DNA of 49,643 nucleotides, from NCBI GenBank assembly GCA_944387385.1, contig CALXES010000011.1, forward strand, positions 1-49,643, in the 5' to 3' direction. Position numbers and translations under genes: made by a program. Origin of the DNA: an uncultured Clostridia bacterium. GTDB taxonomy: Bacteria > Bacillota > Clostridia > TANB77 > CAG-465. A model generated the notes under the pieces. It was not told where the DNA came from. It ran no database searches and saw only the letters and a program-made list of their open reading frames with translations. Of this stretch, positions 2,429 through 24,922 are shown piece after piece (positions within the stretch are counted from its first letter, which is position 1; the number at the start of each line of letters is the position of its first letter).

Positions 2429-2923
2429 GTGATTATTATAAAAAGAGATATATTAATTTTTCCAAAATTTAAAAATATAAATTTAATACAAGATATTCGC
2501 AAAGACTATGATAGACTTGTAAATTTAATTCCGCCACATATAACTCTTGTATTTCCTTTTACAGATTATATAGCAAATGATGACTTAATAAAAAAAATTA
2601 AAGAATGTGTAAAAGACATTAAGCCTTTTAAAATAAAATTTAAAGGGGTATTACTTAACAACCAAAATTTTATATTTTTAAATTGTGTTTATGGAAATGA
2701 AGAAATTATTAATTTGCATAATAAAATATATACTGAAGTATTACCAACTCATTTAAATAAATCTGTTATATATACTCCACATATAACTTTAGGAAAAGCA
2801 AATAATATTGATTTTTTAAAAAATTTTGAATATGAATTTGAAGATATTGTAGATCAAATAGTAATTGAAGAAATAGGTTCAAATGAAGAATCAATTATAA
2901 TTGGCAAAATAAACCTGAACTAG
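2429..2923 (+). CDS. 2H phosphoesterase (LigT / 2'-5' RNA ligase-like)
   Basis: The protein has about 164 residues and two H-x-T motifs, each in a P-H-I-T-L context (about residues 36-40 and 117-121). This pair is the signature of the 2H phosphoesterase fold, which acts on 2',3'-cyclic phosphates or related RNA ends. Length fits the family. The start is a GTG without a clear ribosome binding site. A TATAAT at 2415-2420 would place transcription start almost on the GTG, so a leaderless message is possible. The stop codon lies inside the terminator stem shared with the convergent YitT gene. Substrate unknown. Confidence 0.8.
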   Translation: MIIIKRDILIFPKFKNINLIQDIRKDYDRLVNLIPPHITLVFPFTDYIANDDLIKKIKECVKDIKPFKIKFKGVLLNNQNFIFLNCVYGNEEIINLHNKIYTEVLPTHLNKSVIYTPHITLGKANNIDFLKNFEYEFEDIVDQIVIEEIGSNEESIIIGKINLN

Positions 2924-2951
2924 GGGATTAACTTCCTAGTTCAGGTTTTTT
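2914..2951. terminator. Bidirectional terminator between the 2H phosphoesterase and YitT genes
   Basis: CCTGAACTAGG (2914-2924) pairs perfectly with CCTAGTTCAGG (2935-2945), followed by six T's. The stem overlaps the last codons of the plus-strand gene and abuts the stop of the minus-strand gene. Confidence 0.85.
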
Positions 2952-3788
2952 CTTAATATGTGCTCCTATTATTTCAGAAACATCACTTACTGTAACAAAA
3001 GCATGGATATCGTCTGCATTTACTATATTTCTTAGCTCCGTAAGTTCAAGTCTTGTAATAACACAATATAATATCATTGTTTCACCGTTTATTAATCCTT
3101 TTCCTTCAAAAGCTGTTACAGTCCTTCCTAATTTTTGATATATATCGTTTGCAACTCTTGCACTCTGGTTTGTAATTATAATAACTGCTTTTCCTTGCTC
3201 TAAACCTTCTGATACAAAATCAATAACTTTAAAAGTAATAAAATATGTAAGAAGAGAATACAAAGCTCTATCAAATCCAAATAAGAAACCAGCTATTCCA
3301 TATATAAATACATTACACAAAAGTACTATCTGGCCAACAGAAAAAGTTGATCTCTTACTAACTATTATAGCTGCTATTTCGGTTCCATCTAAGCAACCTC
3401 CATATCTAATTACAAGCCCTACTCCAACTCCTAATATAAGTCCACCATAAATAGTTGCAAGTAACTTATCATGAATTCCAACATCAAACATCTCGGTAAA
3501 ATATAGCATTATTGAAAATGCTACCATTGCAAATAGTGCTTTAAATACGAACTCTTTTCCAAGTGTCTTATATCCTAATATTAAAAATGGTATATTAAGT
3601 ACAACTATAAATATACTTGTTGATATTTCAGTTACTTGTGACAACATAATTGAAACACCATTTACTCCACCATCAAGTATCAAATTTGGTATTAAAACCG
3701 AACCTATTGAAAATGCTGCTAAAGCGCATCCTACTAATATTAATATAATAGAAATTATATTATTTAAAATTCCTTTTTTCTTTTTCAT
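2928..3788 (-). CDS. YitT family membrane protein
   Basis: The protein has 286 residues with five or six hydrophobic segments and a soluble C-terminal DUF2179 domain (from about residue 200, with the alternating E-G-K-G / V-I-T-R-L-E pattern of that domain). This is the standard YitT layout; transport or regulatory function is not established. The start follows AAAGGAGGAAGAA. It lies 20 nt downstream of the Ppx/GppA-like gene with no terminator between, so the two form an operon. A paralogue sits at 43453-44322. Confidence 0.85.
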   Translation of the reverse strand: MKKKKGILNNIISIILILVGCALAAFSIGSVLIPNLILDGGVNGVSIMLSQVTEISTSIFIVVLNIPFLILGYKTLGKEFVFKALFAMVAFSIMLYFTEMFDVGIHDKLLATIYGGLILGVGVGLVIRYGGCLDGTEIAAIIVSKRSTFSVGQIVLLCNVFIYGIAGFLFGFDRALYSLLTYFITFKVIDFVSEGLEQGKAVIIITNQSARVANDIYQKLGRTVTAFEGKGLINGETMILYCVITRLELTELRNIVNADDIHAFVTVSDVSEIIGAHIKKKPELGS

Positions 3789-3808
3789 TTCTTCCTCCTT
3801 TCACTATA

Positions 3809-4663
3809 TTATATTATACCATAAATCATAGAAATATCTGTAGGAATAATATATTTTGCTTCTATTTTTTCTGCTACAACCAAAACAAAAGCACACATTG
3901 CTCTAGTTGCACTCCACCAAGCTGGTTCTTCTACTCTTTCTCTTATTTTATCAAGAGAAATTTTTGTATAATATTTTTTAGTATCTTCTATTCTTGTTTT
4001 TATATCCATCATTATAGTCTCATTAGGATCATCAAATAAATTGTTTTCTTTATATCTTATTCCGGATTCTCTAGCAAAATACTCATGTCCTCCACCTGCT
4101 AAAATCATTATATCTGTTTTTACTTTTGGAACATCTATTCTACTTCTTATATAATCCATAACTGTATCTAGTGGAGTAGTAGCAATATCTCTGGATAAAT
4201 CTGGAAAAACATTTAATATATCCATTACTCCAAAGTTATTATTTTTCATATCTTTAATACCTAAATTAAAATATGAAATTTCTGTAGAGCCACCTCCTCC
4301 AACAAAAACTAAAGCCTCTTTAACATGCTTTGTTGCTCCTTTTACAGTATATATATTCTCATCTTCTTGTGAAATTATATTAAAATCTTTTCCTGTTTTG
4401 TTTTTAAATTCATTTAAAAACTCCTCTTTTTCAAAATCTTCTAATTGTCTAAAAATACTTGTACCACATACAAACACATCTTTAGTTTCTATTGAGTTTA
4501 CAAGCTCAATTAGTTTAGTTACATCATTAATATTTAGCTTATTTTCCTTTTTATAGTTTTTTTTAAATTCTATAGGAACTGTTTTTAAATGCTCTATATT
4601 TTCACCATTATAGCAGTCTACTTTAGTACACGTAGAACCTACCTCTACAACAATTTTATTCAT
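3809..4663 (-). CDS. Ppx/GppA-like phosphatase-family protein (ASKHA fold)
   Basis: The protein has 284 residues. The start resembles the phosphate-1 loop of the actin-like ATPase fold (V-E-V-G-S-T-C-T-K). A G-G-G-G-S-T-E-I motif near residue 120 is the hallmark of exopolyphosphatase/pppGpp phosphatases, and A-G-G-G-H-E near 190 matches the later nucleotide-binding loop. It is close in length to short Ppx proteins lacking the C-terminal HD domain. It is first in a two-gene operon with YitT. A terminator-like hairpin lies 20 nt before its start, so expression may depend on readthrough from the tRNA-Leu unit. Polyphosphate or pppGpp as substrate is family inference. Confidence 0.75.
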   Translation of the reverse strand: MNKIVVEVGSTCTKVDCYNGENIEHLKTVPIEFKKNYKKENKLNINDVTKLIELVNSIETKDVFVCGTSIFRQLEDFEKEEFLNEFKNKTGKDFNIISQEDENIYTVKGATKHVKEALVFVGGGGSTEISYFNLGIKDMKNNNFGVMDILNVFPDLSRDIATTPLDTVMDYIRSRIDVPKVKTDIMILAGGGHEYFARESGIRYKENNLFDDPNETIMMDIKTRIEDTKKYYTKISLDKIRERVEEPAWWSATRAMCAFVLVVAEKIEAKYIIPTDISMIYGII

Positions 4664-20552: not shown

Positions 20553-22157
20553 CTACTTTTCATCATCTATTTGCTCTTCAAGCATTTTTTTTATATCATC
20601 ATCATTCAAATTTTCAAATATATTAAAAGTAAGTTCATCTTTTGGTCCATCATTTTTATCTAAATCTACAAGTTTTATTCCAGAAGAATTAACTTCCTCT
20701 GCTTTAAAACTATTCTTTTCTAAACTTCCTTTTCTTTCTAGCTTTTGTGGAATTTCTTCTTTTATTGTATCTTCTAGTAAATCTACTTTCGGTGGATCAA
20801 TCTTTACATTTGTTTGCACTATATTATCTTGAGATGGAAGTTTTACATCTTCTTGTTTTTTATCTACTTTTAAAATTGTTTTATCTGGATCATCTGGACC
20901 ATTATCATTGTTTTTTAATCTTTTTACTTTTTTTCTTAAAACAATAATATATACAAATTCAATTAATATTAAAAGATACATTAAAACAAGTAAATAATTC
21001 TTCTTAATTGCTGCCCATATATACTTTAAATATGAAAGAACTATTTCTTTTTTACTCTTTGAGTCTTGTATATCTTTTAGATAATCTTTCATTTCTCGCT
21101 CTGCCTCTTCCTCTTGAGTTGCAGTTTTTACCGTATATTTTATTTTATATTCTTTAGTTGTTGTTCCATCCGGTGCTGTAATTTTTATAACAATCTCTCC
21201 CTCACCTGAATCAACTAATTTATCTGCACCAATTATCTCAATTTTTGCATCTGTATCTTTTGCAGATGCTATAACATTTAGCGAATCAACAGTTGACAGT
21301 ATTTCTCCTATATCATATTCAAAAACTTCAGATTGAAATTCTTTATTTAATTCATACCCTTCAATAATTAAACTTTCTAAATATGCATTAGATTTTTCTT
21401 TATCTGCACTTTTTGTAACTATAATATTATATATCCTATAATAACCATTTTGTGCTGTAACCTTTATTGTAATTATATTATCTCCATCAACCAAATTAGT
21501 ATTTCCTGAAATTTCAACTCTCGCATTTGGATCTTCTGCCCTTGCTAGGACCTCAATTGAGTTAACATTTTCATCAACTGATATAGCATAGTCTGTTATA
21601 TTTCTAGTAAAATTTGGAGTAAGTCCTTCTTCACTAATTTGAAGATATTTTAGATAATTATTTCCACTTGATGTATTAGAGTCAGGATTTACATTACCTG
21701 TTGTATTTTGTGTATTATCTGGAACAGTAGTATTATCGTTTGTTTCTTTTTTAGATACATCTATCATTTTTTCAGCTGTAATAGTTCCAAGCGAATCCAT
21801 TGTCTCATTAGCACTTATTGCTCCATTTGTTACAACTGTAATTTTACTTGATCCTTCTTTAAGAGCCCTAAAAGTATATGTCTTTGTTCTTATTCCAGAA
21901 GACGCTTCTGTTTGATCCCACCAAACCTCTTCATTTAAACTATCTCCAGAAACATATTCAAACATACTTGTATCATATGACACACCTAAATTATCATATG
22001 CTGCTACATTTGTTCCAAAATCAAAAGTAAGAGTAAAAGTATCTCCTACGTACACACTCGAATTACCTGTTAAACTTGCAGCATATATTCTAGTTGTAAT
22101 AACTAAAATAAAAACAAATACACCTACTGCAATTCTTTTGAGCATTACCTTGTTCAT
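20553..22157 (-). CDS. Membrane-anchored surface protein with cohesin-like and cadherin-like domains
   Basis: The protein has 534 residues. A signal peptide (about 1-27, ending Y-A-A) is followed by a cohesin-like beta domain (about 28-135, with V-Y-V-G-D-T-F-T-L-T-F-D-F and N-L-G-V-S-Y-D-T-S-M-F-E-Y-V-S). An Asn/Thr linker leads to two cadherin-like beta-sandwich domains (about 165-255 and 258-343, each with a Y-L-x-x-L opening and a terminal V-T/V-K strand). One membrane helix (about 388-408) and an acidic cytoplasmic tail of about 125 residues complete it. The protein downstream of the HD gene carries a dockerin, so the cohesin-like domain may hold it. Confidence 0.75.
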   Translation of the reverse strand: MNKVMLKRIAVGVFVFILVITTRIYAASLTGNSSVYVGDTFTLTFDFGTNVAAYDNLGVSYDTSMFEYVSGDSLNEEVWWDQTEASSGIRTKTYTFRALKEGSSKITVVTNGAISANETMDSLGTITAEKMIDVSKKETNDNTTVPDNTQNTTGNVNPDSNTSSGNNYLKYLQISEEGLTPNFTRNITDYAISVDENVNSIEVLARAEDPNARVEISGNTNLVDGDNIITIKVTAQNGYYRIYNIIVTKSADKEKSNAYLESLIIEGYELNKEFQSEVFEYDIGEILSTVDSLNVIASAKDTDAKIEIIGADKLVDSGEGEIVIKITAPDGTTTKEYKIKYTVKTATQEEEAEREMKDYLKDIQDSKSKKEIVLSYLKYIWAAIKKNYLLVLMYLLILIEFVYIIVLRKKVKRLKNNDNGPDDPDKTILKVDKKQEDVKLPSQDNIVQTNVKIDPPKVDLLEDTIKEEIPQKLERKGSLEKNSFKAEEVNSSGIKLVDLDKNDGPKDELTFNIFENLNDDDIKKMLEEQIDDEK

Positions 22158-22180
22158 ATATATCCTCCAATAAAATAAAT

Positions 22181-22651
22181 TTACATAAGCTTTTTAAGTT
22201 CTTGTTTCAAATCATCTTCAAAAACAGTACCACTAGCAAGTGGTAAATACCACTTAACTGTCTCTTTAATATATTTTTGCTTAAATTCTTCTGTTGCTAG
22301 ATAAGTTTCTGAAATATTATGAAGTCTATCGGCAAGCTTTACCATCTTTGCTATAGGATTATTTCTTATTCTAGAAATATATTCCTCCATAATATAACCA
22401 CTCTCTTTTGTAAGTAATCTCACAGCATCAGCAATTGTTTTGTTACTAATTCTTAAAATTTCTTCATATGTTGTATCAGTATCCTCTATTAAATCATGAA
22501 AAAGTCCAACAATTTGATACTCCTCTGAAAATCCCTTATCTTTTAATATTTTAGCAACTTGAAGTGGATGCATATAATATGGTGTTCCCTGCATTCTTGT
22601 TTGTCCTTCATGTTTATTTTTAATATATTTTATGTATCCACCAAGTTCCAT
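22181..22651 (-). CDS. HD-domain hydrolase of the SpoT/MESH1 type
   Basis: The 156-residue protein has the family motifs Y-Y-M-H-P-L-Q-V-A (first His), F-H-D-L-I-E-D-T-D (HD pair plus E-D) and V-K-L-A-D-R-L-H-N. These match the (p)ppGpp hydrolase domain of RelA/SpoT proteins and small MESH1-like enzymes; the synthetase and TGS domains are absent. It is probably a stand-alone phosphohydrolase, and the substrate is inferred. It lies between two surface-protein genes in the same direction, 15-23 bases apart. Confidence 0.8.
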   Translation of the reverse strand: MELGGYIKYIKNKHEGQTRMQGTPYYMHPLQVAKILKDKGFSEEYQIVGLFHDLIEDTDTTYEEILRISNKTIADAVRLLTKESGYIMEEYISRIRNNPIAKMVKLADRLHNISETYLATEEFKQKYIKETVKWYLPLASGTVFEDDLKQELKKLM

Positions 22652-22666
22652 TATAAATTCTCCTTT

Positions 22667-24922
22667 TTACTGTTCTATAACATATTTTCCTAAAATGTGT
22701 CTTTGTATTTTAAGTAAATCTGCTGCTTTAGGAGTCTGACTTACTTTATCTATTATTGATGCTTTTATCTGAATATTATTTAATTCTGCTTTACCTAAAA
22801 TATATCTTTGAAGCATCAATAAGTCTCTAGCATTAATAACTCCTGATCCATCTACATCTCCATATATTACAATCGTATATTCTTCAACTACAGATCCATT
22901 TTCTATAAATTGAATTTTTGTACCAGTTCCTACTCTGTCATCATCTGATAGTTCTTCTCCATCTATATTTATTACTGTAATATCATAATTTGTAGTAATT
23001 TTATTTTTTATATCTAATACAAAGTTATTATCTAAATCTATATTGCTTAGTACTCCATCTTCAAGTCTTAATGAGTCATCTACTAAAATAGTCTTATCCT
23101 CACCTGTAACAGTAACATTTGCTTTAGCTGTAAATCCTCCATCATCTGTCTTAAATGTTAATGTTGCTTCTCCTATACTATTTGCAATTACAATATTGTT
23201 TTCTACAGAAACAACATCTGAATTTGAAGATGTAATAGTATAATTAGTATTTGTAGCTGTAGAAGGTATAATTATAGGTGTAATTGCAAGCGAATCTCCA
23301 ACATGTAGCATATAATTTGTTTTATCTAAACTTATTCCTGTAACTTTATTTGACACAACATTTATTGTACATATTGCAGTCTTTGCTTTATCTTCTGTTG
23401 TTACTGTAATTGTTACTATACCATTTTTTAGAGCTTTTACATTTCCACTACTATCTACTGTAGCAATTGAATTATCTGATGAACTCCATTTTACATTTTT
23501 ATTATCTGCATTAGATGGATTAACTGTTGCATTTAGTTTTAAAGTATCACCAACATTTAAGTTCGCATACGTTGTGTCTAAACTTACAGATTCAACTTCA
23601 TTATACTTATACTCATATATCCATTTTTTAAGTATGTATCCTACTCTTCCATCATCATACTTTATCTTATCATACAAGGTATTCTGGCCTATTCCTATTC
23701 TTGTAAATTTAGTTCTGTTTTCAGCCCCATCAACAGTCTCATATAGTACTTCTAGTATAGTTGATACTGTATCTGGACCTGTTCTAATCCAGAATTCATC
23801 TGTTGCTCCTGAATCTGATGGATCATCTAAATATACTCTAGTATCATCTTCAACAAAGTATACATCACTTGGCACTGGCATACTTGCTACTTCTTCTGGC
23901 ATATTTTCATATACTGGTATATGAAATTCAAATGGAGAGTTAATCATATTATAACTGTTATACGCATTATACGTAATTAAAGCTTCTCCCTTAGGTCCAA
24001 ATATATTTGTCATATATCCAGTTCCAAGCAACCACTGTGCGGTTCCTGGATTATTTACATCAAATCTTTCAAAGTATATTGTATCTTGTCCCCATTTTAT
24101 GTATTTACTATAAATATACTCTATTCCACCTCTTAGAGCTGCCGATACGCTTGTCCAGCCATTATTTCTTGCATAATTTAATCCATTTGTAACTGCTGAT
24201 TGACCATTTGCATCATATGCTCCTATATTAAAGAAGTTGTATACTCCATAGTCTCCATTAATTAGACTGCCATTTACTATATTACCACTATTTTCTTGTC
24301 TAATTCTTGAAGCAATATGAACAGGGTTAATTCCTACATCTTTTGATATACTATGTATTAGCTCAGCATAAGTTGTTCCCAAATCATACCATGTACCATA
24401 TGATTTATATTGACTTTTATACTGTCCACCCATAGGCGTTGCAGCAAGTACACTTTGCACAGCATCAACACTTTGAGTTGCACCATTATAACTTAATACT
24501 TCAAACTGAAATATTCCATTTTCGTTAATAAAATTACGTGGATCTACAACATATGCAACAGCCTGCTTTGAAGCTGTAACATAGTTTCCATCTTGATAGT
24601 AGTTCTGTCCATCTCTTTTCCATTCTGCACCATATATATCCTCAACTAAGCTTATCCCCTCATTTACCTCATATGACTCATGAGATAAAACTGTGTTCCA
24701 GTCTAAGCCAGTATGAACAGCCTTAAATATCCAGTTAGGATGTTTTTCTTTTAAAGCATTAATATATGGCATATATGAATCCGGAAAGTTTTCATCTATA
24801 TAAGACACTGGTAAATTTGAATAAATAGCACCCTTTACCTCTCGAAAATTTATAGTTGAGGTTATAATACATATAACTAATAGCAATATTATCCCCTTAA
24901 ACTTTAATTTTCTACTTTTCAT
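22667..24922 (-). CDS. Secreted beta-N-acetylglucosaminidase with Big_2 repeats and a dockerin
   Basis: The protein has 751 residues. A signal peptide (about 1-32) precedes an N-terminal module with P-D-S-Y-M-P-Y-I-N-A-L-K-E-K-H-P-N-W-I-F. The glucosaminidase domain follows (about 145-325, S-R-I-R-Q-E-N-S-G with the catalytic Glu), then an SH3-like stretch, two bacterial Ig-like Big_2 domains (about 443-610), and a C-terminal dockerin-like pair of F-hands from about 685. The first F-hand (D-V-D-G-S-G-V-I-N-A-R-D) has full calcium ligands; the second lacks the D-x-D. It cleaves the GlcNAc-MurNAc backbone. Two genes downstream is a membrane protein with a cohesin-like domain. Confidence 0.85.
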   Translation of the reverse strand: MKSRKLKFKGIILLLVICIITSTINFREVKGAIYSNLPVSYIDENFPDSYMPYINALKEKHPNWIFKAVHTGLDWNTVLSHESYEVNEGISLVEDIYGAEWKRDGQNYYQDGNYVTASKQAVAYVVDPRNFINENGIFQFEVLSYNGATQSVDAVQSVLAATPMGGQYKSQYKSYGTWYDLGTTYAELIHSISKDVGINPVHIASRIRQENSGNIVNGSLINGDYGVYNFFNIGAYDANGQSAVTNGLNYARNNGWTSVSAALRGGIEYIYSKYIKWGQDTIYFERFDVNNPGTAQWLLGTGYMTNIFGPKGEALITYNAYNSYNMINSPFEFHIPVYENMPEEVASMPVPSDVYFVEDDTRVYLDDPSDSGATDEFWIRTGPDTVSTILEVLYETVDGAENRTKFTRIGIGQNTLYDKIKYDDGRVGYILKKWIYEYKYNEVESVSLDTTYANLNVGDTLKLNATVNPSNADNKNVKWSSSDNSIATVDSSGNVKALKNGIVTITVTTEDKAKTAICTINVVSNKVTGISLDKTNYMLHVGDSLAITPIIIPSTATNTNYTITSSNSDVVSVENNIVIANSIGEATLTFKTDDGGFTAKANVTVTGEDKTILVDDSLRLEDGVLSNIDLDNNFVLDIKNKITTNYDITVINIDGEELSDDDRVGTGTKIQFIENGSVVEEYTIVIYGDVDGSGVINARDLLMLQRYILGKAELNNIQIKASIIDKVSQTPKAADLLKIQRHILGKYVIEQ

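Follow-up and report, generated by a model that had tools for sequence, protein, structure and literature searches.

A membrane protein with a cohesin-like domain as the probable tether of a dockerin-bearing glucosaminidase in Clostridia

The window analysed in this study, a stretch of 49,643 nucleotides from an uncultured Clostridia bacterium (assembly GCA_944387385.1, contig CALXES010000011.1), encodes a GH73-type glucosaminidase with a C-terminal dockerin and, nearby, a membrane protein whose N-terminal domain (N-domain) is cohesin-like. These two proteins are probably a cognate pair, in which a cohesin-dockerin contact tethers the wall hydrolase at the membrane. Such a tether had been proposed in an earlier, sequence-only reading of this DNA, and it is supported by the predicted fold of the N-domain, the conservation of the gene pair, domain types which match and switch together in both partners, and the joint absence as well as the fusion of the partners in some genomes; from these observations we infer the binding itself.

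The hydrolase and the membrane protein form a conserved pair in the order, and the pair recurs in other families of the class. When genomes were searched with a profile of the membrane protein, the family gave matches in 35 of 36, the order in 211 of 238 and a sample drawn from the class in 29 of 156; at all three levels some matches cover the cadherin-like part only. Altogether, 98 genes of the membrane protein were gathered, and 95 were retained after removal of a duplicate (L082, of L039), a gene cut by a contig end (L064) and a fragment (L204). A partner dockerin was readable for 90 of them. In 84 cases it was encoded by a gene upstream in the same orientation, no more than 1 kb away (the gap has a median of 19 bases and is at most 50 bases in 63 of the 84), three more were found in the same frame as the membrane protein, and three were assigned by hand (L039, with the hydrolase a few genes away; L173, with the dockerin inside the hydrolase; L081, with a partner that does not look like GH73). 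The five remaining genes lack a dockerin (L079, L161), an adjacent hydrolase (L176) or an intact hydrolase frame (L196, L197). Loci of the sister family f3 were taken from the best matches of the order search, and this sample is without weaker paralogues. Six loci were read outside the order, of seven which were new in the class (L231-L235, L237, L238). At four of these (L231, L232, L237, L238) a GH73-looking protein with a C-terminal dockerin adjoins a cohesin-like, cadherin-like protein; at L234 the dockerin partner is a different surface protein, and L233 is unrelated.

The catalytic part of the hydrolase matched six sequences of the PDB (E 7e-12 to 6e-7) over about 90-110 residues. These include the Bifunctional autolysin 6fxo, Autolysin E and 6u0o_B (E 2.8e-10), the entry of which is named LYZ2 domain-containing protein and which we take to be SagB from the SagB-SpdC complex. 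Judged by these alignments, the enzyme is related to the solved GH73 or SagB-type glucosaminidases, and the glutamate of its RQE motif is presumably catalytic. The Pfam scan of the hydrolase revealed Big_2 and Dockerin_1 and gave no glucosaminidase family; the NCBIfam SagB model, which has its cut-off at 425 bits, reached no more than 42.9.

The sequence-only reading had described a C-terminal dockerin whose second repeat lacks its calcium ligands, and this description was confirmed. PF00404 matched with 33.2 bits (cut-off 22.9) at profile positions 1-35 of 57, which is the first repeat only. The second repeat reads ASIIDKVSQTPKAADLLKIQRHILG; its calcium ligands are gone. Across the 13 sequences of alignment A4, that of the window included, the helix of this repeat is kept (DLLKIQRHILG) and the calcium ligands are lost. 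The profile of A4 also matched the dockerin chain 2ccl_B (E 1e-9). In the structure model of A4, the first seven blocks, assigned to the X module in front of the dockerin, showed block values of the predicted local distance difference test (pLDDT) of 79-93.

The N-domain was modelled with AlphaFold2 from 14 aligned sequences (pLDDT 94.8; predicted template modelling score 0.85), and in this model it has the beta-sandwich fold of a cohesin, as had been suggested earlier. Three cohesins of C. perfringens are the best matches in VIA-align (2w1n, Z 11.2; 2vo8, Z 11.1; 2jh2, Z 11.0), with 106-108 of 113 residues aligned and rmsd values of 2.8-3.1, and numerous cellulosomal cohesins score near Z 9. 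A different beta fold, which had been named as one outcome that would speak against the proposed contact, was not indicated by this search; the cohesins lead it, and the best non-cohesin reaches Z 9.6.

A reading of the N-domain as another bacterial Ig-like, BatD-like or S-layer-type beta-sandwich has nevertheless to be considered, although we regard it as unlikely. The Pfam scan of the whole membrane protein showed no cohesin, and with the N-domain alone BatD (DUF11-like, 22.5 bits) scored higher than Cohesin (16.5 bits), both below their cut-offs of 24.1. Also pointing away from a cohesin are the scores of non-cohesin beta-sandwiches up to the said Z 9.6, the result of Foldseek, which taken alone mixes nanobodies (rank 1) with cohesins (ranks 2 and 4), and the Big_2-like domain found at the same place in some lineages. 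However, apart from the three cohesins at the top of the structural list, PF00963 matched in 11 of the 14 window-type orthologues of the genus, all below the cut-off of 24.1 (best 22.3 bits). In a wider set of ten N-domains, picked by hand because they looked cohesin-like by eye (eight from f3, two from f1), six exceeded this cut-off, all of them from f3 and with a highest score of 46.8 bits. Two of these six also match BatD weakly (16-17 bits), and a BatD match therefore does not exclude a cohesin. A search of the N-domain profile against 177,635 PDB sequences gave two matches only, both of them scaffoldin cohesins with weak E values (0.21 and 0.24). In the profile-profile comparison, window-type and C-type N-domains matched with a probability of 97.6%, which is not decisive alone, as the Ig-type profile reached 97.2%. 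The assignment of the N-domain as cohesin-like is supported by the model with its structural matches and by the PF00963 matches in the orthologues and in the wider set.

In some lineages the N-domain is Big_2- or Ig-like rather than cohesin-like. When ten such N-domains were scanned, PF02368 was above the cut-off in L173, below it in L050, L160 and L170, and unlisted in six, one of which (L081) showed a weak cohesin match. With the Ig-type profile, partners of DYVxIKN-type (Y-type) dockerins scored at least 40.1 and all others at most 36.3; the Ig label stands for a score of at least 38, a cut which was set in this gap after the scores were seen. With these labels the types agree in 90 of 90 pairs, as 23 Ig-type N-domains are paired with Y-type dockerins and 67 others with other dockerins (62 of the Q-type, five of further types), and no pair is mixed. 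The first, weaker profiles had given Ig-type N-domains with a Q-type dockerin at L047 and L209 and with another dockerin at L077 and L078, besides five ambiguous cases; with the rebuilt profile the former four score 33, 31, 36 and 36, respectively, all under the cut. If strict labels are used (N-domain score at least 40, difference at least 14), 64 of 64 pairs agree, and the cadherin tree then holds only two changes, which are too few for a test. One genome (G063) possesses both kinds of pair, each of them type-matched (L155, L159).

The types also change together on trees from which the respective domains were left out. In a tree of the cadherin-like region, free of both N-domain and dockerin, each trait changes 12 times, and six of six independent pairs on starred branches were concordant (p 0.031); the best tree has 12 pairs. 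When the dockerin was removed and the rest of the hydrolase body used for a tree of 87 rows, 11 changes were counted for each trait, and seven of seven pairs were concordant (p 0.016), with 11 on the best tree. Either tree had branches flagged as long.

The dockerin classes can be told apart at two positions, if the last Asp of the loop is numbered 12. Positions 17-18 are QR or QK in 56 of 64 rows of the non-Ig dockerins in each repeat, and KN in the Ig-type dockerins (of 22 rows, 18 in repeat 1 and 19 in repeat 2), in a count which misregisters odd rows (L049, L060, L209), leaves L205 unread and gives approximate numbers for the calcium loops. The dockerin of the window hydrolase has QR in both repeats. 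Positions 10, 11, 17, 18 and 22 have been described as putative cohesin-recognition residues (PMC3413522), and the two classes thus differ at sites at which recognition would be expected.

Paired absence and gene fusion further support a functional link between both proteins. In two genomes (G015, locus L079; G019, L161) a membrane protein without the N-domain adjoins a hydrolase which ends in Ig-like repeats and has no dockerin. As these loci are sisters on the tree, this is probably one event. In three other genomes (G147, G098, G197) the two genes are merged into a single frame of 1154-1169 aa; there, the hydrolase and its dockerin are closely followed by the cohesin, two cadherin-like domains and a transmembrane helix; one of these fused proteins was scanned with Pfam and matched PF00963 with 46.8 bits. 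The dockerin located inside the hydrolase at L173 (genome G232; 2488-4236, minus strand) is of the Y-type and matches its Ig-type partner.

Some unusual loci were observed beside these. G019 additionally has a normal pair (L052). Related pairs with yet other types of N-domain or dockerin-bearing partner occur at L081, L083, L084 and L199, and L084 and L199, which belong to different families, have an odd look of the N-domain and an LK-type dockerin in common. In a related genome, a cohesin match lies within an open frame of 5805 aa (G024:C33:16957-17304).

Other cohesins and dockerins exist in the genome of the window, which amends the earlier reading. This genome contains 17 dockerin matches above the cut-off in 13 reading frames, the hydrolase included, one cohesin above the cut-off and a secreted adaptor of 199 aa. 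The cohesin, encoded on contig C26, is single in its protein and scored 36.8 bits when scanned alone; the whole-protein scan had missed it. Its protein has an LPXTG-like end and adjoins two CAP-like proteins ending in dockerins (L028 2054-10378), the second of which is cut by the contig end. These genes are a second, wall-anchored cohesin-dockerin group. As regards a scaffoldin, the cohesin on C26 is the one above-cut-off cohesin of the genome, but cohesins like that of the window escape Pfam. A weak PF00963 match is found at C1:152340. Nine dockerin proteins were scanned with Pfam and showed GH25, BspA-type leucine-rich repeat (LRR), CAP, transglutaminase-like and Ig-like parts; among these nine there was no plant-polysaccharide enzyme, and GH25 was the sole glycosidase. 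A secreted protein of 110 aa (L030 4149-4481, minus strand) consists of little beyond a dockerin-like stretch.

The adaptor combines a window-like domain (38% identity), which gave no cohesin match when scanned alone with Pfam, with a dockerin of the bulk kind directly behind it. Proteins of this type were found in 13 of the 14 genomes with a window-type N-domain, and the search, at E 0.001, listed none for the 22 further genomes of the family. The dockerin of the hydrolase is 79% identical between ten genomes and that of the adaptor 47%. The latter has a mean identity of 0.64 to the bulk dockerins of its own genome (n=12) and of 0.48 to those of other genomes (n=108), in a comparison which covers the ten of 13 adaptors recognised by the script. 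At contig C4 the bulk dockerins carry LD at positions 17-18 (read by eye), versus QR in the hydrolase dockerin. This suggests two orthogonal specificities with the adaptor between them, which could also connect the hydrolase to the second cohesin network.

These data also bear on the question whether the membrane cohesin might be a general surface receptor for the other dockerin proteins of the cell (CAP, BspA-type LRR, GH25, transglutaminase-like), with the neighbouring hydrolase as one of its ligands or none. The excess of 13 dockerin frames over one recognised cohesin would fit such a role. It is, however, improbable in view of the different residues at positions 17-18, of the strong conservation of the hydrolase dockerin between genomes, while that of the adaptor is closer to the bulk dockerins in the same genome than to those in others, and of the pair staying together across the order.

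Several results weigh against a direct contact of the N-domain and the dockerin or limit what the type matching can tell. Since the co-switching was scored for Ig-type N-domains against all the rest, it shows pairing and not cohesin binding as such, and matching types would also be expected if both domains bind a third partner which varies between lineages. The tree of the catalytic domain (52 rows) holds only two changes and cannot test co-switching. The dockerin part of the structure model has a pLDDT below 50; this low-confidence part was left out of the fold search. In mirror-tree analyses, the partial correlation of N-domain and dockerin distances was 0.66 in the window clade (n=13), 0.27 for the Ig-type pairs (n=22) and 0.29 for all (n=87); these correlations allow for the other domains, and the permutations ignore relatedness. 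In the window clade, however, the distances of cadherin-like region and dockerin also correlate (0.55), and the 42 cohesin-type pairs of f3 showed no correlation of N-domain and dockerin (-0.14, p 0.995).

It could accordingly be argued that the two proteins are linked without touching each other. The N-domain would then bind a wall polymer or another protein, the dockerin would bind the cohesin of the adaptor, and the types would match due to inheritance of the pair as a unit or due to a third partner. Besides the absence of a fine-scale correlation in the sister family, the adaptor with its related domain and its presence in nearly all window-type genomes would agree with this. Nevertheless, we consider it improbable, because the type changes run counter to the trees built from what is left of each gene, N-domain and dockerin are missing jointly, and dockerins persist beside the membrane gene in the 22 genomes of the family in which the adaptor was unmatched.

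For the cognate pair, the following arrangement is proposed. The glucosaminidase is secreted, and its C-terminal dockerin would dock on the cohesin, which forms the outer tip of its membrane partner, with the two cadherin-like domains (PF12733, 53.5 bits in two stretches) as a stalk. Docked in this way, the hydrolase would stay near the membrane, at the site at which new peptidoglycan appears, and would act on the own wall of the cell. The cytoplasmic tail shows many invariant columns from I494 to L526 in the ten window-clade sequences of alignment A2, and its conserved end was not seen in the 13 rows from other lineages in alignment A1. It is possible that this end is a docking site for a cytoplasmic partner, which may link the tether to wall synthesis.

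In a broader sense, the pair may be a module which places wall hydrolases at the membrane in several families of Clostridia and has an exchangeable receptor domain, a cohesin in most of the lineages read and a Big_2- or Ig-like domain elsewhere, with a separate class of dockerin for each. We put this forward tentatively, as a possibility somewhat short of even. If it is true, the Ig-like domain is a second kind of dockerin receptor and not a cohesin in the present sense. For binding studies and for the design of assemblies, the loci supply receptors and dockerins matched by nature, among them a receptor that may not be a cohesin.

Between the two genes of the window lies a gene for an HD-domain hydrolase, which the sequence-only reading had counted to the same gene group (Table 1). 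That grouping stands for the hydrolase and the membrane protein and fails for the HD gene. Among the loci examined, only the window genome (G000) and the near relatives G005 and G007 have it between the two genes, and other genes are found at this place in G016. The HD gene was rejected as a member of the system and is a local insertion outside the conserved pair.

Table 1. Positions of the genes, domains and related frames (in the window, unless a locus or contig is given).
Feature	Position	Strand	Remarks
Glucosaminidase gene	22667-24922	minus	751 aa, secreted; GH73-type; signal peptide, catalytic part, SH3-like stretch (by eye), two Big_2, X module, C-terminal dockerin
X module	22871-23089	minus	GTGTK...YTIVIYGD; precedes dockerin; first ~70 residues of model A4
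Dockerin	22670-22870	minus	residues 685-751; PF00404; first F-hand canonical, DVDGSGVINARD
HD-domain gene	22181-22651	minus	156 aa; HD_4 / SpoT-like hydrolase; PF13328 55.9 bits; spoT_relA E 4e-25, under cut-off
Membrane protein gene	20553-22157	minus	534 aa; single-pass; signal peptide, cohesin-like domain, two cadherin-like domains, transmembrane helix, cytoplasmic tail
Cohesin-like N-domain	21744-22082	minus	residues 26-138; predicted structure and structural matches
Best-scoring cadherin-like domain	21411-21644	minus	residues 172-249; PF12733; second one downstream
Transmembrane helix	20937-20996	minus	about residues 388-407, then basic residues (N-terminus outside); by eye; conserved in alignment A1
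Conserved end of cytoplasmic tail	20565-20681	minus	GIKLVDLDKxxGPKDELTFNIFENLxDxDIKKML; alignment A2
Adaptor	G000:C4:84356-84682 (L026 12162-12761)	minus	199 aa
Fused frame, L193	2408-5917
Fused frame, L194	2360-5836
Fused frame, L195	2309-5773

Cohesin and dockerin modules are known mainly as parts of systems for the digestion of cellulose, starch or mucin. In these small-genome gut Clostridia they seem to serve the growth of the own wall instead. Because cohesins of the window kind fall under the Pfam cut-off, this would help to account for genomes in which dockerins are found and cohesins are annotated rarely or not at all. An earlier cohesin-dockerin pair for a peptidoglycan hydrolase was not found among the matches listed in full-text searches, represented mostly by titles and the beginnings of abstracts and with subscription journals largely outside their scope. 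A survey of non-cellulosomal cohesins and dockerins from 2009 reportedly may include some of the domains described here.

The closest structures, with Z values of 11, are the cohesins (X82) of the cohesin-dockerin glycoside hydrolase complexes of C. perfringens, which are likewise non-cellulosomal (PMC12997984). There, however, all five cohesin proteins also bear a glycoside hydrolase domain, whereas the cohesin protein of the window is a membrane anchor and its partner a peptidoglycan-hydrolase-like enzyme. The single cohesin of Ruminococcus albus, proposed as a surface anchor of dockerin enzymes, resembles the window cohesin as a lone tether and not a scaffold; it is thought to serve many dockerin enzymes there, whereas a dedicated partner is encoded next door here (PMC6118326). 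The mucinolysome of Limousia is also a cohesin-dockerin network of gut bacteria and, like the group at contig C26, includes a cohesin protein with an LPxTG anchor, but it functions in multi-enzyme mucin degradation, and GH73 and transmembrane are absent as terms from the main text of the source (PMC12997984).

With regard to function, the nearest counterpart is found in S. aureus, where SpdC, a membrane protein, forms a complex with SagB that releases nascent peptidoglycan (PMC12272431). The two systems would share a GH73-type glucosaminidase which an integral membrane protein holds and tunes, and the catalytic parts are related. SpdC, however, belongs to the CAAX protease family and binds directly according to this source, whereas a single-pass cohesin protein and a dockerin-bearing enzyme are present here. 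Pfam gave no CAAX protease in the membrane protein of the window. As the partner is not of this family, the pair is not a member of the SagB-SpdC complex family. It would rather do the job which SpdC does for the GH73 enzyme SagB, with unrelated parts, and would be a second solution to the same problem.

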